Below, one piece after another: positions 39,314-56,767 of a DNA stretch of 64,000 nt; position 1 is the stretch's first letter, and each line of letters begins with the position of its first letter. This stretch comes from Gemmatimonadota bacterium. GTDB lineage: Bacteria; Gemmatimonadota; Gemmatimonadetes; Gemmatimonadales; GWC2-71-9. The stretch spans positions 194,345-258,344 of the forward strand of contig SHZU01000001.1 of assembly GCA_009692115.1 (NCBI GenBank). The letters are read 5' to 3'. The notes below the pieces were generated by a model. That model did no database searches and was not told where the DNA came from. It saw nothing but the letters and a program-made list of their open reading frames with translations. A program made the position numbers and the translations under genes.

Positions 39314-41047
39314 CTAGTAAAAGGGGAAGAACACCGGGATGGCAAGCAGCGCGACGATCAAGAACACGATCGCGATCGGGAGGCCGCCGCGGACGAAATC
39401 AGATAGGGTGTACCGTCCGGGCGACATCACCATCAAGTTCGTCTGATACCCGTACGGCGTGATGAAACTGCAACTCGCCCCATAGAGCACCGCCATGACG
39501 AACGGCATCGGGTCGAGTCCGAGTTTCTGGGCCACGCCGACAGCCACCGGGAAGGCCAGGGCCGCCGCGGCGTTATTGCTCATCACCTCGGTCAAGACCC
39601 AGGTGACCAGCAGGATGATTCCGAGCGCCCAGTAGGGGCCGACATTTTCCGCCCCGGTCAGGAGGCCGCCGGCCAGGAGTTCCGCGGTACCGGTGTTGAT
39701 CATCACCTGGGAAATCACCAGGGCCGATGCCAGGATGATGATCAGGCTATACGGCATGTTCCGCCGCAAGTCGCTCGACTTGACGAGGCCCGCGGCCAGA
39801 AAGAGCGTCAGTAGAATGAGCAGGCCCTTCAGAAAGTCGAACACCCCGGCTGCCGAGAGGATCACCACGGCCAGGAACCCGGCTAGCCCGAGGAGCCCCT
39901 TTCGCTGATCCACGAACTTCTGCACCTCGCGGCGGGAGACGACGACGAAGTTTCGGGCCAGGTTGTTGCGTTTCTCGAAGTCCTGACCGACCACCAGGAC
40001 GAGCGTGTCGCCCACCTCGAGCGGCACGTTGGCGATGGCGCCAGCCAGTCGTTCGCTGCCCCGTCGCACCGCGATCACCGCCGCGTCGAACTGGGAACGA
40101 AAATCGGCTTCCTTGATCGTCCGCCGGGCCAGGGTGGAGTGGACGGCCACGACCACCTCGACCAAGTTATCGGTTGGCAAGTCGTAGTGGTCCCCGTGGG
40201 TCTTGAGCCCGTCGAACTGGGCCAGCACATCGAGCCGGGTGATGTCGCCGGTGAAGACCAGGACGTCGTTGGCCTGAATCGCCTCGTCCGGCTCGACGGG
40301 CACGATGACCCGGCCGCCTCGGACGATTTCGGTGAGAAACAAATGAGCCAGATTCCGGAGCCCATTGGCCCGCACCGAGCGGCCCGCCAAGCGAGAGGTC
40401 GGGCTCACCGTGGCCTCGAGGAAGTAGTCCGACGCCACATCGTCCACCGGCGGCTGTTCCTTGAGAATCGAGGGATACAGGAGCACCATCGTGATTCCGC
40501 AAGCCACCACGATCAGAATCCCGACCGGGAACAAATCGAACATGTGGAGCGCCGGCATCTGGCGGCCGACCAGGAGGCTGTTCACCAACAAATTGGTGGA
40601 GGTACCCACCAGGGTCAGGATCCCGCCGAGCGAGGCGGCGAAGCACATCGGGAGCAAGAGACGCGATGGTGAGTGCTGCCGCGATTGGCGGAGCGGGCCA
40701 AGCAGTGACGCCACCACGGCCGTGTTGTTCAGAAATGCCGAATAGGCGGCCGTCGCGACGTAGAGCTTGGTCAAGGCCAGCCGATAGGGGCCCCGGACCA
40801 CCCGATCGGCCGCGGCCTCGAGCAATTGGGCCTTGTCAAGCACCACCGACAGCAACAGCAGCACCACGACCGTGACCAAGCCGGTATTCGTCAGTTGCCG
40901 GAGGCTGGTGTCGATATCGACGTAGTCGATCAGCACAAACGCCAGCGCCACTCCGCCGAACACGGTGGCGGGCGACCGCTTGTCGCGCACCAACTCGACC
41001 ACGAGGACGACCAGGGCCAGGGTCACCACCGCTTGTTGCAGGGTCAT
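39314..41047 (-). CDS. SLC13/DASS family permease with RCK_C domains, probable sulfate transporter
   Basis: 577-aa membrane protein with hydrophobic halves flanking two cytosolic TrkA-C (RCK_C) modules (about 205-390: [50 protein letters not shown]). DASS signatures appear as [16 protein letters not shown] (SNT-like) and [20 protein letters not shown]. It overlaps the end of cysNC (ATGA) and is last in cysD-cysNC-permease, so sulfate uptake is the best guess. Other oxyanions or dicarboxylates remain possible. Confidence 0.87.
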
Positions 41048-42951
41048 GGATCGATCAACCCCAGCACCCGGAGGCGCTCGAGGACCTGATCCGCCGCCTG
41101 CTCGGCCGTCGTCCCCACGGTATTGACTCGCAGGTCGGGTGTCTCCGGCGGTTCATAGGGTGAGTCGATACCGGTGAAGTTGGTGAGTTCTCCCCGGCGA
41201 GCCTTCTGGTAGAGACCCTTGACGTCCCGCGACTCCGCCACCTCGAGCGGGGTGTCGACGTGGATTTCAACGAACTCATTCTCGCCGAGGAGACTCCGGG
41301 CCAAGGCCCGCTCGGAGCGGAACGGTGAAATGAATGCGGTCAGCACGACCAGCCCGGCGTCAACCATCAACTTGGCCACCTCAGCCACCCGACGAATGTT
41401 CTCGACCCGGTCGGCGTCCGTGAAGCCAAGATCCTTGTTCAGACCGTGGCGCACGTTGTCGCCGTCGAGGAGGTAGGAATGCCGCCCCATGGCGTGAAGC
41501 CGCTTTTCGACCAGGTTGGCGATCGTGGACTTGCCGGCCCCCGAGAGGCCGGTGAACCACAGCACCACCGGGCGCTGGCCCTTGAGGCGGGCCCGGGCGC
41601 TCTTGTCGATGTCGAGGTGCTGCAGATGGATGTTATGGGAACGCCGGAGCGCAAAATGCAGCAACCCGGCGCCGATCGTGTTGTTGGTCATCCGGTCGAT
41701 CAGGATGAAACCGCCGCTATCCCGGTTGGTGCTGTAGGGGTCGAACGCCACCACGCGGTCGAGGGCAATGTTGCAGACGCCAATCTCGTTCAAGTCGAGT
41801 TTCTTGGCGGCCAGGTGCTCCATCGTATTGACGTTGACCTTGTATTTCGGCTCGGTGATCGTGGCGCTGACCGTTCGAGCGCCGATCTTGAGCAGGTAGG
41901 GCCGGCCGGGCAACATCGGCTCATCGGCCATCCACACAATGGTGCATTCGAATTGGTCGGCGACTTCGGCCGGCGACTCGGCGGCGGAGATGAGATCCCC
42001 ACGCGAAATATCGATCTCGTCTTCCAGCGTCAGGGTCACGGACTGGCCGGCCACCGCTTCGGGCAGGTCGCCGTCGACGGCCACGATCCGAGCCACCCGG
42101 CTTTCCCGGCCGGACGGCTGGGCCCGAATCCGGTCGCCGGGCTTGACGGACCCGCCGGTGATCACGCCGCAGAAGCCCCGGAAGTCGAGGTTCGGCCGGT
42201 TGACCCACTGGACCGGCAGGCGGAGCGGACCGGCTTGAAGAGGTTCCTCGTCGATCTCGGTGGTCTCGAGAAACTCCATCAACGTCGGCCCGTGGTACCA
42301 TGGCGTTCGCGGGCTCGGGTCGACCATGTTGTCGCCCTTGAGGCCCGAGAGCGGGATCGAGGTGATGTCGGCGAGACCAATCTGCTCCGCAAACGACCGG
42401 TACTGCTGGTCGATCTGGCGGAAGGCCGGCTCCGAGAAATCGACCAGGTCCATCTTGTTGATCGCGAGGACGACTTTCCGAATCCCGATCAGACTCACCA
42501 GGTAACTATGGCGGCGGGTCTGGGTCAGAACCCCTTTCCTGGCGTCGATCAGGATGACCGCGACGTCGGCGGTGGAGGCGCCGGTAATCATGTTCCGGGT
42601 GTACTGCTCGTGCCCCGGGGTGTCGGCCACGATGAACTTCCGCCGGTCGGTACTGAAGAACCGGTAGGCCACGTCGATTGTGATCCCCTGCTCCCGCTCG
42701 GCGGCCAGACCGTCGACCAGCAGCGCGAAATCGATCTCGCCGCCCTGGGTGCCCCATTTCTTCGAGTCGGATTCGATGGCGGCGACTTGGTCGTCGAACA
42801 ACATCTTTGACTCGTAGAGCAGGCGACCGATGACCGTACTCTTGCCGTCGTCGACCGACCCACAGGCAATGAACCGGAGCAGGCTCTTTCGTTCGTGTTG
42901 GTGCAGATAGGCTTCGATGTCGCTCGCGATCAAATCGGAAACATGGGCCAT
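41044..42951 (-). CDS. cysNC: Bifunctional sulfate adenylyltransferase large subunit / APS kinase (CysNC)
   Basis: 635 aa. Residues about 20-440 are the CysN GTPase (P-loop [36 protein letters not shown]), which drives ATP sulfurylase in complex with CysD. Residues about 455-630 are APS kinase (P-loop [17 protein letters not shown], then [15 protein letters not shown] and [12 protein letters not shown]), which phosphorylates APS to PAPS. Fusion of N and C is common. It follows cysD with a one-base gap, so the whole sulfate-activation route is in one operon. Confidence 0.96.
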
Positions 42952-42952
42952 A

Positions 42953-43852
42953 TCAGAAGTACCCTTCCTGCTTCTTCTTCTCCATCGACGCGGCGGTGTC
43001 GTGATCGATCATCCGACCCTGCCGCTCGGACGTCCGGGTCAGGAGCATTTCTTGGATGATCCCGACCAACGTGTCGGCCTCTGACTCGATCGCGCCGGAC
43101 AACGGATAGCAGCCGAGGGTCCGAAACCGGACCTTCTTCATCATCGGCGTCTCACCAGGCAGGAGCCGCATCCGATCGTCGTCCACCATGATCAGGGTGC
43201 CGTCCCGCTCGACCACCGGACGCAGGGCGGCGAAGTACAGGGGCACGATCGGAATGTTCTCCAAGTGGATGTACTGCCAGACGTCCAGCTCGGTCCAGTT
43301 CGAGATCGGAAACACCCGGATCGACTCGCCCTTGTGCTTCCGGCCGTTGTACAAGCGCCAGAGCTCCGGACGCTGGAGCTTGGGGTCCCACCGGTGTTGG
43401 TCGCTCCGGAATGAGAAGATCCGTTCCTTGGCCCGCGACTTTTCTTCATCGCGCCTGGCGCCGCCAAAGGCCGCGTCGAACCCGTGGAGATCGAGCGCCT
43501 GTTTGAGGCCCTGGGTCTTCCACATGTCCGTGTGGATCTGCGAGCCATGGTCGAACGGATTGATGCCCAACGCCTTGGCTTCCGGGTTCTGATACACGAG
43601 CAACTGCATGCCCAACTCGCGGGCCATCCGCTCCCGGAGCTGGTACATCGCCTGGAATTTCCAGGTGGTGTCCACGTGGAGGAGCGGAAACGGGGGCGGA
43701 GACGGATAGAACGCTTTCTTCGCCAGGTGCAGCATCACGGCGCTGTCCTTGCCGATCGAATACAACATGACGGGGTTATCGCTCTCGGCGACGACCTCCC
43801 GCATGATGTGGATGCTTTCGGCTTCCAGGCGCTGCAAGTGGGTGAGTTTCAT
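42953..43852 (-). CDS. cysD: Sulfate adenylyltransferase small subunit CysD
   Basis: 299 aa from the ATG at 43852 ([20 protein letters not shown], the normal start). PP-loop motif [14 protein letters not shown]; further CysD signatures are [28 protein letters not shown] and [15 protein letters not shown]. It makes APS from ATP and sulfate with CysN. It is the first gene of cysD-cysNC-SLC13 and is divergent from cysQ across an 84-bp spacer. Confidence 0.96.
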
Positions 43853-43936: not shown

Positions 43937-44713
43937 GTGGACGAACCGGTGATCGCGGGGGCCAGTTGGCAAGCCGAGGTCATCGCCATCACCCGGGCCG
44001 CCGGCGCCGCGATCATGGAGGTCTACGCCACCGACTTTGCCGTGCCGGGCAAGAAGGACCGGTCGCCGGTGACCCAGGCCGACGACCGGGCCGAGGCCAT
44101 TATTACCCCGGCCTTGGAGCGCCTGGCCCCAGGAATACCAGTGGTGGCTGAGGCAGCCGTGGCGGCGGGTCATACCCCTGGAGTCGGCGACTGGTTTTGA
44201 CTGGTCGACCCCCTCGACGGCACCAAGGAATTCATTAGCCGGAACGGCGAGTTCACCGTGAACATCGCCCTCGTGCATCGGCACCGCCCGGTGTTCGGCG
44301 TGGTGTTGGCCCCCGCGCTCAACCGGCTGTTTGCCGGCGCGGTTGGCCACGGGGCCTATGTCGAAGATGACGGCGGCCGGCGGCCGATCCGGTGCCGAAC
44401 CGTACCTGAATCCGGATTGGTGGTAGTGGCCAGCCGCTTCCACAGCGATACCGCGACGCTCGACGCATTCCTTCTGGGGCGCCGAGTGGCCTCGACCACC
44501 AATGCCGGCTCGTCCCTCAAGCTGTGCTTGGTGGCCGGCGGGGAAGCCGATCTCTATCCCCGCCTCGGACGCACGATGGAGTGGGATATCGCGGCCGGTC
44601 ATGCAGTCCTGGCTGCGGCCGGCGGGCAAGTCCGGACCACCGGCGGCGAGCCCCTGCGGTACGGCAAGCCAGGGTTCGACAACCCTCATTTCGTGGCCGA
44701 AGGTCTGACCTAA
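43937..44713 (+). pseudogene. cysQ: 3'(2'),5'-bisphosphate nucleotidase CysQ interrupted by an in-frame TGA
   Basis: CysQ removes the 3'-phosphate of PAP left after PAPS use. From the GTG at 43937 the first 87 codons include [18 protein letters not shown]; then TGA (44198-44200) follows GDWF, and the same frame continues [21 protein letters not shown] and late [15 protein letters not shown] to a TAA at 44713. Most CysQ proteins have Trp at the TGA position (YWLVDPLDG). All metal ligands after the stop are intact, so a single TGG-to-TGA change explains it: nonsense mutation, sequence error or readthrough. It is divergent from cysD. Confidence 0.85.
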
Positions 44714-52500: not shown

Positions 52501-54027
52501 ATGGCTTTGGGCCAGAGCGGGACGGCCATTGCGCCGGAGTTCATCACGAAAGTCCGCGAGAAGCTCGGCGGGTCCGTCATTCCCCATTTCATCGGCGGCG
52601 AGTTCGTGCCGGGGCATCGGGGCGAAACGTTCGAGACCCTCGATCCCTCCACGAACCAGTTGCTGGCCCGGGTGGCGCGGGGGCACGCCGAAGACATCGA
52701 CCGGGCGGCCGACGCGGCCCATCAAGCCTTCCAGTCGTGGCGAAAGCTCGCGCCCAAGGCCCGCCGGACGCACCTGATCCGGATCGCCGCGGTCCTCGAC
52801 AAACACGGCGACGAACTCGCCACCATCGAGTGCCTCGACGCGGGCCAAGTGATCAAGGTGGTCCGGGCCCAGATTGCCCGGGCGGCCGAGAATTTCAGCT
52901 TTTACGCCGAGTATGCCGACAAGGCGATGGACGGGCGGACTTACCCGGTGGGCCATGAGTGGCTCAACTACACGCTCCGGGTGCCGGTCGGGGCCTGCGG
53001 GATCATCACCCCGTGGAATTCGCCCCTGATGCTGGCCACGTGGCGGATCGCCCCGGCGCTCGCCACCGGCAACACCGTCATCCTGAAACCGGCCGAGTGG
53101 TCGCCGCTGACGGCCTGGAAGCTCGCCCGGATCATCCAGGAAGCCGACTTGCCGCCGGGGGTCTTCAATGTGGTGCAGGGGTTCGGCGAAGAGGCCGGGG
53201 CCCCGTTGGTGGCGCACCCCAAGGTGCCGCTGATCACCTTCACCGGCGAAACCACCACCGGCACCATCGTTACCAAGAACGCCGCCGATCAGCTCAAGCG
53301 GGTCTCGCTCGAACTCGGCGGCAAATCGCCGTCGGTCGTCTTTGCCGACGCCGACCTCGACCGCGCGCTCGACGGCACCGTGTTCCAGATCTTCAGCCTC
53401 AACGGGGAACGCTGCACCGCCAACTCCCGGGTCCTGATCCAGGCCTCGATCTTCGATGACTTCGTGGCGCAGCTCGAAGCCCGGACCAAAGCGGTCACGG
53501 TGGGCCATCCGCTCGACCCCAATACCGAAGTGGGCCCCCTGATCCACCCCGAACATTGCGACCGGGTGCTTGGCTATCTCGACATCGGGAAGCGTGAAGG
53601 CGCCCGGCTCGTGGCCGGCGGACACCGGGTCGGCACCGAGGGCAACTATGTCGCCCCGACCCTGTTCACCGGCGACAACCGGATGCGGATTGCCCAAGAA
53701 GAGATCTTCGGCCCGGTCTTAGTCGCGATCCCCTTCACGGACGAGGCCGATGCCTTAGCCAAGGCCAACGACGTGAAGTACGGCCTCGCGGCGTATATCT
53801 GGACCTCCGATGTGGCCCGGGCCCACCGAATGGCGCTCGGCATCGAGGCCGGGATGACCTGGATCAACAGCCACAACGTCCGCCACCTGCCGACGCCGTT
53901 CGGCGGGGTCAAGTTCAGCGGCACCCACCGCGAAGGGGGCGAGCATGCCTTCGAGTTCTACACCGAGATCAAGAACGTGGCCGTGCCGCTCGGCACCCAC
54001 CCGATCCCGCAGTTCGGCAAGCGTTAG
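52501..54027 (+). CDS. hpaE: 5-carboxymethyl-2-hydroxymuconate semialdehyde dehydrogenase
   Basis: 508 aa aldehyde dehydrogenase with GAGGAG-type SD nine bases upstream. Motifs: ITPWNSPLMLATWRIAP, ITFTGETTTG, catalytic Glu in SLELGGKSPSVVF and Cys in FSLNGERCTANSRVLIQ (the NGERC form is typical of HpaE). It oxidises the ring-cleavage semialdehyde CHMS to CHM in homoprotocatechuate degradation. The five following genes are the other steps of that route, which fixes the assignment. Confidence 0.93.
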   Translation: MALGQSGTAIAPEFITKVREKLGGSVIPHFIGGEFVPGHRGETFETLDPSTNQLLARVARGHAEDIDRAADAAHQAFQSWRKLAPKARRTHLIRIAAVLDKHGDELATIECLDAGQVIKVVRAQIARAAENFSFYAEYADKAMDGRTYPVGHEWLNYTLRVPVGACGIITPWNSPLMLATWRIAPALATGNTVILKPAEWSPLTAWKLARIIQEADLPPGVFNVVQGFGEEAGAPLVAHPKVPLITFTGETTTGTIVTKNAADQLKRVSLELGGKSPSVVFADADLDRALDGTVFQIFSLNGERCTANSRVLIQASIFDDFVAQLEARTKAVTVGHPLDPNTEVGPLIHPEHCDRVLGYLDIGKREGARLVAGGHRVGTEGNYVAPTLFTGDNRMRIAQEEIFGPVLVAIPFTDEADALAKANDVKYGLAAYIWTSDVARAHRMALGIEAGMTWINSHNVRHLPTPFGGVKFSGTHREGGEHAFEFYTEIKNVAVPLGTHPIPQFGKR

Positions 54028-54036
54028 GCGCGTCAC

Positions 54037-55005
54037 ATGACGACCCCAGAGATCATCCGGATCGGCCACGTGGTCCTATCGGTGGCCGATCTCGCCGCTT
54101 CGAAACGGTTCTACGTCGATCTCCTGGGATTGAACCTGCTCCACGAAACGCCGGGCGCCCTCTACCTCCGCGGGGTCGAGGATCGCGAGTGGAGCCTCAA
54201 GCTCGAGACCGGCCCCGCCCCGCGGGTCCGGCAGTTTGGCTTCAAGGTCGGGTCCGAGGCCGCTCTCGACCAATTGGAGGCGCTAGCCCGTGCCGAAGGT
54301 CTGGCCACTCGGCGAGAGTCCGAACTCGACCGGCCCTCGTTGCTTCGGATCCAGGACCCGTTCGGCTTCCCGATGACCTATTACTACCAATCGGTTCGCC
54401 ATCCGTGGCTGCTCCAGCGCTACGACCTGCACCGAGGCCCCGGGATTACTCGGATCGACCATGTGAACGTCTTCTCCCCGACGGTGGGCGACATGGCGGC
54501 ATGGTACCAGCGGACCCAGGGATTCCGGCTGAGCGAGTACACCGAGGACCAAGACGGGGTGACCTGGGCCGCGTGGATGCACCGGAAGGGCAACGTCCAC
54601 GATCTCGCCATCACTAACGGCGCCGGCCCCCGGATGCACCACTTTGCGTACTACCTCCCCGACGGGAGCCGGGTCACCCAGCTCTGCGATATCCTGGCCG
54701 GCGCGCGGATGGAGGCCCACATCGAACGCGGTCCCGGGCGCCATGGGATCTCGAACGCCTTCTACCTCTACCTTCGCGACCCCGACGGCCACCGGATCGA
54801 GTTGTACAGCTCGGACTATCTCACCGTGGATCCCGACTTCGAGCCGATCCGGTGGGACCGGGACGACATCCGGCGCCAGCAACTGTGGGGCGGCCCCGCA
54901 CCGAAGCGGTGGTTTACCGAGGGATCAGTGGTCGAGTCATTCGACGGGGCCGGGTCGCCGGTCCGGGAATCGGCGTTGTCGGGCATCCCGACCTACATCT
55001 CATGA
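54037..55005 (+). CDS. hpaD: 3,4-dihydroxyphenylacetate 2,3-dioxygenase
   Basis: 322-aa extradiol (meta) ring-cleavage enzyme of the type I vicinal-oxygen-chelate family with two repeated modules. Iron ligands in the C-terminal module: His142 (ITRIDHVNVFS), His201 or 202 (PRMHHFAYYL) and Glu255 (DGHRIELYSSDY). The C-terminal WDRDDIRRQQLWG with APKRWFTEG matches homoprotocatechuate 2,3-dioxygenases. It opens the ring of homoprotocatechuate to CHMS. hpaG1 begins at an ATGA overlap. Confidence 0.94.
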   Translation: MTTPEIIRIGHVVLSVADLAASKRFYVDLLGLNLLHETPGALYLRGVEDREWSLKLETGPAPRVRQFGFKVGSEAALDQLEALARAEGLATRRESELDRPSLLRIQDPFGFPMTYYYQSVRHPWLLQRYDLHRGPGITRIDHVNVFSPTVGDMAAWYQRTQGFRLSEYTEDQDGVTWAAWMHRKGNVHDLAITNGAGPRMHHFAYYLPDGSRVTQLCDILAGARMEAHIERGPGRHGISNAFYLYLRDPDGHRIELYSSDYLTVDPDFEPIRWDRDDIRRQQLWGGPAPKRWFTEGSVVESFDGAGSPVRESALSGIPTYIS

Positions 55006-55634
55006 GCCGGACGGTCTATGCGGCGGCGCTCAACCGGCTGGAGACGTGGCGGGCGTTGGGCGATGCGCTCAACCGGGACCCCTATAAGGCCCCGCCCAAG
55101 GCCCCGGTGTTGCACTTGAAGCCGGCCAACACCTGGATCGGCCCCGGCGATCCGATCCCCTGCCCGGCCGGGGTGCCCGCCCTCCGGATGGGAGGCACCG
55201 TGGGCCTGGTCATCGGGCGCACCATGTCCGGCGTCGGGCCGGACGAGGCCCTGGCCCACTTGGCCGGCTTGGTGGTGGCCAACGACGTGAGCATCCCTTA
55301 CCAGTCGCACTACCGGCCTGCCATCAAAGAGCGCTGCCCCGATGGCTTCTGTCCCATCGGGCCGGTGGTGGCCCCCGGCGGCGCGCTCGACCCAGACGGT
55401 CTCGAGGTGGTCATTGAAGTGAACGGCCGAATCGTGCGCCGAGCGGATGGCCGGGGATTGGTGCGCGGCGCCGCCCACCTGTTGGCGGACGTCTCCCAAT
55501 TCATCACCTTCGAACCCGGCGATATCCTGCTCCTCGGAGAGCCCCACGAACCGCCACTCGCCACCCCCGGTGACCGGGTCCGGCTTGTGATCGCGGGGGT
55601 CGGGGTTCTCGAGAATCCGGTGGAGCGGGAATGA
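55002..55634 (+). CDS. hpaG1: HpaG1: fumarylacetoacetate-hydrolase-fold subunit (OPET decarboxylase half)
   Basis: 210 aa from the ATG at 55002, which overlaps the hpaD stop. FAH-fold metal-site features: LKPANTWIGPGDPI at the start, GLVIGRTMSGVGP, VVANDVSIPYQSHYRP and FEPGDILLLGEP. In E. coli HpaG one 429-aa chain holds two FAH repeats; here the repeats are separate genes overlapping by four bases. It takes part in decarboxylation of 5-oxo-pent-3-ene-1,2,5-tricarboxylate and isomerisation of the product. Confidence 0.88.
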   Translation: MSRTVYAAALNRLETWRALGDALNRDPYKAPPKAPVLHLKPANTWIGPGDPIPCPAGVPALRMGGTVGLVIGRTMSGVGPDEALAHLAGLVVANDVSIPYQSHYRPAIKERCPDGFCPIGPVVAPGGALDPDGLEVVIEVNGRIVRRADGRGLVRGAAHLLADVSQFITFEPGDILLLGEPHEPPLATPGDRVRLVIAGVGVLENPVERE

Positions 55635-56371
55635 AGCGGGCCCGGGTGATGTTCCAGGGAACCGAATGGGCGGCCACCGAGTCCGATGGGATGGTCCGCC
55701 TTTCCGACGGCCGGATGCTGGCCGAAGCGGACGTGGGGTGGCTCCCGCCGGTGGTGCCGCGAACCATCTTTGCCGTTGGCCTCAACTACGCCGACCACGC
55801 CAAGGAACTCGCCTTTACGCCACCGACCGTGCCGTTGGTCTTCCTCAAAGGCGCGAATACGATCTGTGGGCACTTCTCCCGGGTCAGCCGCCCGGCCGAC
55901 GTGACCTTCATGCACTACGAGTGTGAATTGGCCGTGATCATCGGCCGAACCGCCCGCCGGGTCCGCCAGGCCGACGCGCTCGACTATGTGGCCGGCTACA
56001 CGGTGGCGAACGACTACGCGTTCCGCGACTACCTCGAGAATTACTACCGGCCGAATCTTCGGGTCAAAAGTCGTGACCATGCCACCCCGCTTGGCCCGTG
56101 GCTGGTTGACCAAGCCGACGTGCCCGACCCCGCCAACCTCCGGCTTCGCACCACCGTCAACGGCAGCGAGACCCTGGCCGGCTCGACCAGCGCCATGATT
56201 TTCTCGGTGGCGTGGCTGATCGAGTATCTGAGCGGCTTCCTGACTCTCTCGCCGGGCGATCTCATCCTGACCGGCACGCCCGACGGACTGGCCAACGTCC
56301 AGGCCGGCGATATCGTGACCACCGAAGTCGAAGGGGTGGGCCGGTTGACCAGCACCATCGTGGGAGACTAA
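55631..56371 (+). CDS. hpaG2: HpaG2: FAH-fold decarboxylase/isomerase half
   Basis: 246 aa, starting at an ATGA overlap with hpaG1. FAH-fold motifs are stronger here: [44 protein letters not shown] (the metal-binding Glu-x-Glu), [20 protein letters not shown] and [15 protein letters not shown]. Together with HpaG1 it forms the bifunctional 5-oxopent-3-ene-1,2,5-tricarboxylate decarboxylase / 2-hydroxyhepta-2,4-diene-1,7-dioate isomerase. Confidence 0.9.
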
Positions 56372-56377
56372 GCACTG

Positions 56378-56767
56378 ATGCCCCATCTCATCGTCGAGTA
56401 CACCGACAATCTGGGCGACGGGGCCCGGATCCCCGAGTTGCTCGCGAAGGCCAACCGAATCCTGATGGATCAGGGCGGCGTTTTTCCAACCGGCGGGATC
56501 CGGTCCCGGGCCCACCGGCTGACCGAATACGCCGTGGCCGACCAGGCCGCCGACTACGGATTCGTCCACGCCCGGCTCACGATCGGCGCCGGCCGCCCCG
56601 AGGCCGTCACACGCGCCACCGGCGACCAACTCTTCGCGATGTTCAAGGAACACTTTGCCGAGCTGTTTCAGGCCCGGCCCCTGGCGATCTCGTTCGAGCT
56701 CTACGAAACCAGCGAGGCCTGGAGCTGGAAACACAACAACCTGCACGCGCGCTTCAAGCAACCCTAA
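56378..56767 (+). CDS. hpaF: 5-carboxymethyl-2-hydroxymuconate delta-isomerase
   Basis: 129 aa, the usual length of CHM isomerase, a tautomerase-superfamily trimer. It begins with the catalytic N-terminal proline ([13 protein letters not shown]) and has the [12 protein letters not shown] and [15 protein letters not shown] segments of the family. It converts 5-carboxymethyl-2-hydroxymuconate to OPET, between HpaE and HpaG. Six bases separate it from hpaG2. Confidence 0.93.

Follow-up and report, generated by a model that had tools for sequence, protein, structure and literature searches.

An in-frame TGA at a tryptophan position of cysQ in a Gemmatimonadota bacterium: probably a nascent pseudogene

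The cysQ frame of this Gemmatimonadota bacterium raises the question of whether a gene with a single in-frame TGA is being lost, is still translated through the stop, or is interrupted only in the assembled sequence. Recent loss, readthrough and assembly error were the explanations offered in the first-pass annotation, and these proved to be the right alternatives. The window, which is the whole stretch of 64,000 nucleotides that was analysed, contains the following features of the gene.

43937-44713, forward strand: frame of cysQ, 3'(2'),5'-bisphosphate nucleotidase (TIGR01331, PF00459), with a GTG start, 258 codons and one internal stop.
44153-44155, forward strand: codon 73, GCA (Ala) where the second Glu of the SEE metal-site motif is expected; GAA and GAG in the relatives G266 and G267.
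44198-44200, forward strand: codon 88, an in-frame TGA; 88 of the 106 other homologues (the best 80 of 581 plus 26) have Trp here, and G266 and G267 have TGG.
44207-44233, forward strand: intact DPLDGTKEF motif, residues 91-99, downstream of the TGA.
44438-44440, forward strand: codon 168, TTC (Phe) where Ser is expected; TCC in G266 and G267.
44582-44599, forward strand: intact WDIAAG motif, residues 216-221.

When TGA is translated as Trp, the product scores 272.3 bits against the CysQ equivalog model TIGR01331 (cut-off 228.8), which means that the cysQ reading is not a chance match. PF00459 also matches this product, and among solved structures its nearest sequence match is 3b8b, which bears the name CysQ. 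The open reading frames show that the TGA is the sole stop among the 258 codons and that reading continues uninterrupted on either side of it, as the first-pass annotation had stated. The genome-wide family search likewise returned one TGA inside the cysQ match, at the same place, and it is at codon 88 that the gene departs from the uninterrupted frame expected of CysQ. The start codon is GTG in the window (43937) and ATG in G266 and G267 (L208 and L209), so the window gene possibly has a slightly weaker start.

The first set of homologues comprises the best 80 of 581 confirmed candidates from named genomes. They were found with peptide patterns taken from the window protein, and the set therefore leans towards conserved sequences. 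Nine sequences from relatives (weaker relative matches being dropped at E 1e-40) bring the number of others to 89, and 17 from the same order bring it to 106. Of the 89, 71 have Trp in the column of codon 88, 12 have Phe, 4 Ala, 1 Val and 1 Ile; among the 106, Trp rises to 88 and the other residues keep their counts. The residue replaced by the stop had been called a conserved Trp, and it is indeed the majority residue but not an invariant one. The closest relatives of the window cysQ, G266 and G267 (73 and 75% identity), both have TGG at codon 88. No internal stop was seen in the 26 other matches listed from the same order, and the stop at query position 3 in one of the 89 homologues (L052) probably precedes that gene's own start.

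Motif 3 (DPLDGT) and motif 6 (WD) of CysQ are both present, in agreement with the earlier statement that the metal-binding motifs after the TGA are perfect. The description of the gene as otherwise intact holds for this downstream part but fails before the TGA, where motif 2, with its two strictly conserved Glu residues, reads AEA instead of SEE: Glu72 is kept and Glu73 is replaced by Ala. The homologues have SEE or AEE as a rule, and because the residue before the Glu pair is Ser or Ala in many of them, only the second Glu counts. This column is Glu in all 106 other homologues (the best 80 of 581 plus 26). According to PMC5516325, both Glu residues of the motif are strictly conserved in IMPase-type HisN proteins, the first being a likely metal ligand, and in the CysQ orthologues treated there a Ser stands before the pair. 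PMC2080633 lists one Glu of the same site as a ligand in SuhB of M. tuberculosis. The other unusual residue is Phe168, where 98 of the same 106 homologues have Ser.

Taken by their identity, the changes at Glu73 and Ser168 would be moderate evidence for loss. As a sign of relaxed constraint they were dropped, because the total number of deviations is ordinary: in a leave-one-out count over columns conserved to at least 90%, the window has 2 deviations, and 34 of 90 sequences, window included (the best 80 of 581, 9 relatives and the window), have at least 2. A deviation at one otherwise invariant column occurs in 12 of these 90, the window among them. For this reason Glu73 alone, through its identity, is taken as evidence, and of moderate weight. 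Aside from the TGA and the Glu73 change, the protein appears to be under constraint.

The cysQ frame is accompanied by the following genes on the opposite strand.

42953-43852, reverse strand: cysD, intact, divergent from cysQ, with TGA as its own stop (TIGR02039, 494.8 bits).
41044-42951, reverse strand: cysNC fusion, intact, with TGA as its own stop (NF004035, 1057.7 bits).
39314-41047, reverse strand: transporter-like protein of 577 amino acids adjoining cysNC, 70 and 72% identical to genes beside cysC in Ideonella (L035) and Rubrivivax (L045) loci.

That an intact cysNC lies beside cysQ had been recognised from the start. Since both cysNC and cysD terminate with TGA, this codon acts as a stop here. 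The transporter-like protein is presumably of SLC13 type, and no match to it was found within about 1 kb (G266) and about 3 kb (G267) beyond cysC.

The window cysQ is 68-70% identical to the best of the Pseudomonas, Ideonella and Rubrivivax copies (among the best 80 of 581) and 42-53% identical to same-order copies other than those of G266 and G267, which, among the matches listed, are thus less alike than the proteobacterial ones. In the protein tree the window cysQ and those of G266 and G267 form a group (support 0.954) nested among proteobacterial sequences (0.905 and 0.835). A divergent cysDNC adjoins cysQ in nine loci among L034-L049 (L034-L038, L041, L044, L045 and L049), and at least one cysD, cysN or cysC match lies near cysQ in 21 of the best 80 of 581 loci, within the stretches examined. 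The best cysNC match among 100 relatives, a set that does not include G266 and G267, is only 49% identical (G082), with partial matches up to 52%. By these comparisons the cysDNC-cysQ cluster is proteobacterial in type, and its horizontal acquisition, perhaps on more than one occasion, is probable as the simplest account. Identity of G266 and G267 to the window is 92% for cysD, 82-83% for cysN and 87-91% for cysC; the window cysN resembles that of Ideonella (84%) slightly more than those of these relatives, which counts against a single shared acquisition. One TGA recorded inside the cysN match of the relative G001 (query 23-451) was rejected, since the alignment of query 24-431 has no stop and the TGA would lie beyond the conserved part.

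Tolerance of a cysQ loss depends on how much PAP the cell makes. The PAPS reductase family PF01507 matches only cysD in this genome and the sulfite reductase family PF01077 has no match, so the main PAP-producing route appears to be absent; the genome is estimated to be 97% complete, and such gene absences are therefore not absolute. Phosphopantetheinyl transfer also yields PAP. The region 39314-43852 (transporter-like gene, cysNC and cysD) is a PAPS-making cluster in a genome where no sulfite reductase was found, and its PAPS may serve sulfation. There is one sulfotransferase locus in the genome when two families, PF00685 and PF13469, are searched: a sulfotransferase-domain protein (G000:C11:103785-104522, L147; PF00685, 118.8 bits), a candidate PAPS user. 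PF00685 was matched in 2 of 14 control genomes.

A search for a second cysQ or an nrnA, suggested as a check in the first-pass annotation, gave an intact NrnA-like DHH-DHHA1 protein (L115:976-2070, reverse strand), at 116 bits against the curated NrnA cut-off of 350, and no second intact CysQ in the genome: the other two of three PF00459 places score 71.7 and 96.4 bits against the CysQ cut-off. Their best models are SuhB and HisN, and they fall below those cut-offs too. As reported in PMC9757072, NrnA of B. subtilis complements an E. coli cysQ mutant, although NrnA proteins are poor pAp hydrolases in vitro. The warning that PAP would be toxic if no other nucleotidase exists is therefore weakened by the NrnA-like gene and the lack of detected PAPS-reduction genes, but it keeps some force in view of this poor activity.

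The change at codon 88 appears to be young. There is no frameshift in 43937-44713, and GC3 is 0.80 both before and after the TGA. The rate of the window cysQ was compared with those of G266 and G267 by means of five outgroups; the ten relative-rate tests had p values of 0.14-0.86, so accelerated evolution of the gene is unsupported. The absence of frameshift and of acceleration implies that any loss of cysQ is recent. One nonsense and one missense change at 25 invariant columns (the best 80 of 581 plus 26) put the neutral time at about 0.027 substitutions per site (0.003-0.098), a rough figure in that both changes are assumed to follow the loss of constraint and the substitution model is simple. 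The fourfold-site distances from the window cysQ to G266 and G267 are 0.97 and 1.13, near saturation. With a neutral time of about 0.03 against a fourfold distance of about 1, the proposal of a very recent loss is supported. The cysQ gene is more diverged than cysD also between G266 and G267 (77 against 98% identity). Tests of cysN gave p < 0.05 in 4 of 15 cases, two with a shorter window branch, one with a longer one and one a control between G266 and G267; these mixed results indicate that the history of cysN is not simple.

We consider it probable that the window holds a genuine cysQ that acquired a nonsense mutation very recently and is probably turning into a pseudogene. One substitution would have converted the Trp88 codon to TGA, and translation would normally end in a fragment of 87 residues that lacks DPLDGT and WD and, judging from what is known of the family, would be inactive. 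The loss is probably tolerable because, with no PAPS-reduction pathway seen, little PAP would be made, and the NrnA-like protein and the two other IMPase-family proteins could clear some of it. The stop at a Trp column together with the changes at Glu73 and Ser168 speaks for this explanation at the level of sequence. The ordinary count of conserved-site deviations and the otherwise constrained look of the protein would speak against it, as would the leakiness of UGA, with Trp as the residue reported to be inserted (PMC7918605). The role of NrnA would also weigh against it, NrnA being reported in PMC9757072 as a poor pAp phosphatase and the protein found here falling below the cut-off.

A functional but leaky cysQ is possible, though unlikely. 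Here ordinary tRNA-Trp(CCA) would read UGA as Trp at a low rate, and the stop would only lower expression, leaving a little full-length CysQ that is enough for a cell making little PAP. The UGA sits exactly on a Trp place and is followed by C, which together with UGA forms a weak stop context. The sequence still looks constrained; constraint that acted before a recent stop would look identical, however. In-frame stops in bacterial genes are described as widespread in PMC7918605, with dN/dS below 1 and with TGA leaky through insertion of Trp. The closest relatives argue against the leaky gene in that both have TGG, so conservation of the stop is not seen in G266 and G267, and the read-through product would itself lack the conserved Glu73.

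The tRNAs do not help a leaky gene either. Anticodons were read for all 44 tRNAs in the genome, to which ARAGORN adds one tRNA-Leu, and the one tRNA-Trp has the anticodon CCA. Its fold, read by eye, has A9, G24, a paired C27-G43 and a 5-bp anticodon stem, whereas the features connected with UGA readthrough by tRNA-Trp(CCA) are, in PMC13092985, a 4-bp stem, A9C or G24A. Neither a tRNA-Trp(UCA) nor a tRNA-Trp(CCA) with such features was thus found in the genome. Because the tRNA-Trp is of the ordinary CCA type, dedicated recoding of UGA in cysQ is unlikely.

A rather doubtful explanation is that TGG is the true codon and that the TGA comes from a mistake in sequencing or consensus calling, or from a minority variant among strains, in an assembly that is fragmented. 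The assembly consists of 23 contigs with an estimated contamination of 1.5%, and one base of the assembled sequence decides the fate of the frame. A single error does not explain the unusual residues 73 and 168. A crude scan for internal stops in the window picked out two stops elsewhere, each the normal end of a gene, but it is weak evidence as it missed the focal TGA, whose upstream score of 0.13 lies below the threshold of 0.25; its training set probably included antisense open reading frames because the sequence is GC-rich. The two flagged stops, at 54025 and 56369 (window 53400-56700), were rejected as internal stops since they are gene ends, with the following gene lying in the same frame. 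By eye, the genes of this region are apparent aromatic-degradation genes.

It is quite improbable that the UGA is kept as a leaky stop after the need for high CysQ activity has gone, with a trickle of full-length protein supplied by Trp readthrough. A horizontally acquired gene would then have become a low-expression allele whose output tracks translational fidelity.

Selenocysteine had to be considered because the genome has selenocysteine machinery: a tRNA-Sec with a TCA anticodon (G000:C3:258565-258658, L174; 67.3 bits, gathering threshold 47) and a match to SelB that is free of internal stops (G000:C2:372570-374399, L183; 303.5 bits, cut-off 242.25). Decoding of codon 88 as selenocysteine is nevertheless very improbable, given that Cys occurs at this column in none of the 106 other homologues (the best 80 of 581 plus 26) and that general folding of four stretches around the UGA gave no stability beyond that of shuffled sequences (z 1.38, 0.14, 1.01 and 0.24). 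Reassignment of UGA to Trp in the lineage has next to no probability: nothing besides the codon itself favours it, the TGA ends of cysD and cysNC contradict it, and no UCA anticodon other than that of tRNA-Sec occurs among the 44 tRNAs and the added tRNA-Leu. A +1 frameshift of RF2 type at TTT TGA C was rejected because both halves of the gene are in the same frame.

Compared with known systems, the window gene shares with CysQ (TIGR01331; IMPase superfamily, PF00459) a score above the cut-off, DPLDGT and WD, and a cysDNC neighbour as in several proteobacterial loci, but it differs in the TGA at codon 88 and in Ala for the second Glu of SEE. It resembles the recent bacterial pseudogenes and one-stop genes treated in PMC7918605 in having a single nonsense change in an open, constrained frame with no frameshift. 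It is one more example of a kind already known, since in-frame stops are reported there to be widespread, and here both closest relatives carry TGG at the stop site. The UGA at an expected Trp is also a likeness to readthrough by tRNA-Trp(CCA) as presented in PMC13092985, from which the 5-bp stem, A9 and G24 set this genome apart.

The cysQ gene at 43937-44713 is thus to be annotated as interrupted, with a read-through product that also lacks a Glu of the metal motif. The significance beyond annotation is little. If readthrough were true, in a host with PAPS-making genes and no PAPS-reduction genes found, the locus would show cleanly, in a natural setting, how a UGA at a Trp site can set the level of expression.
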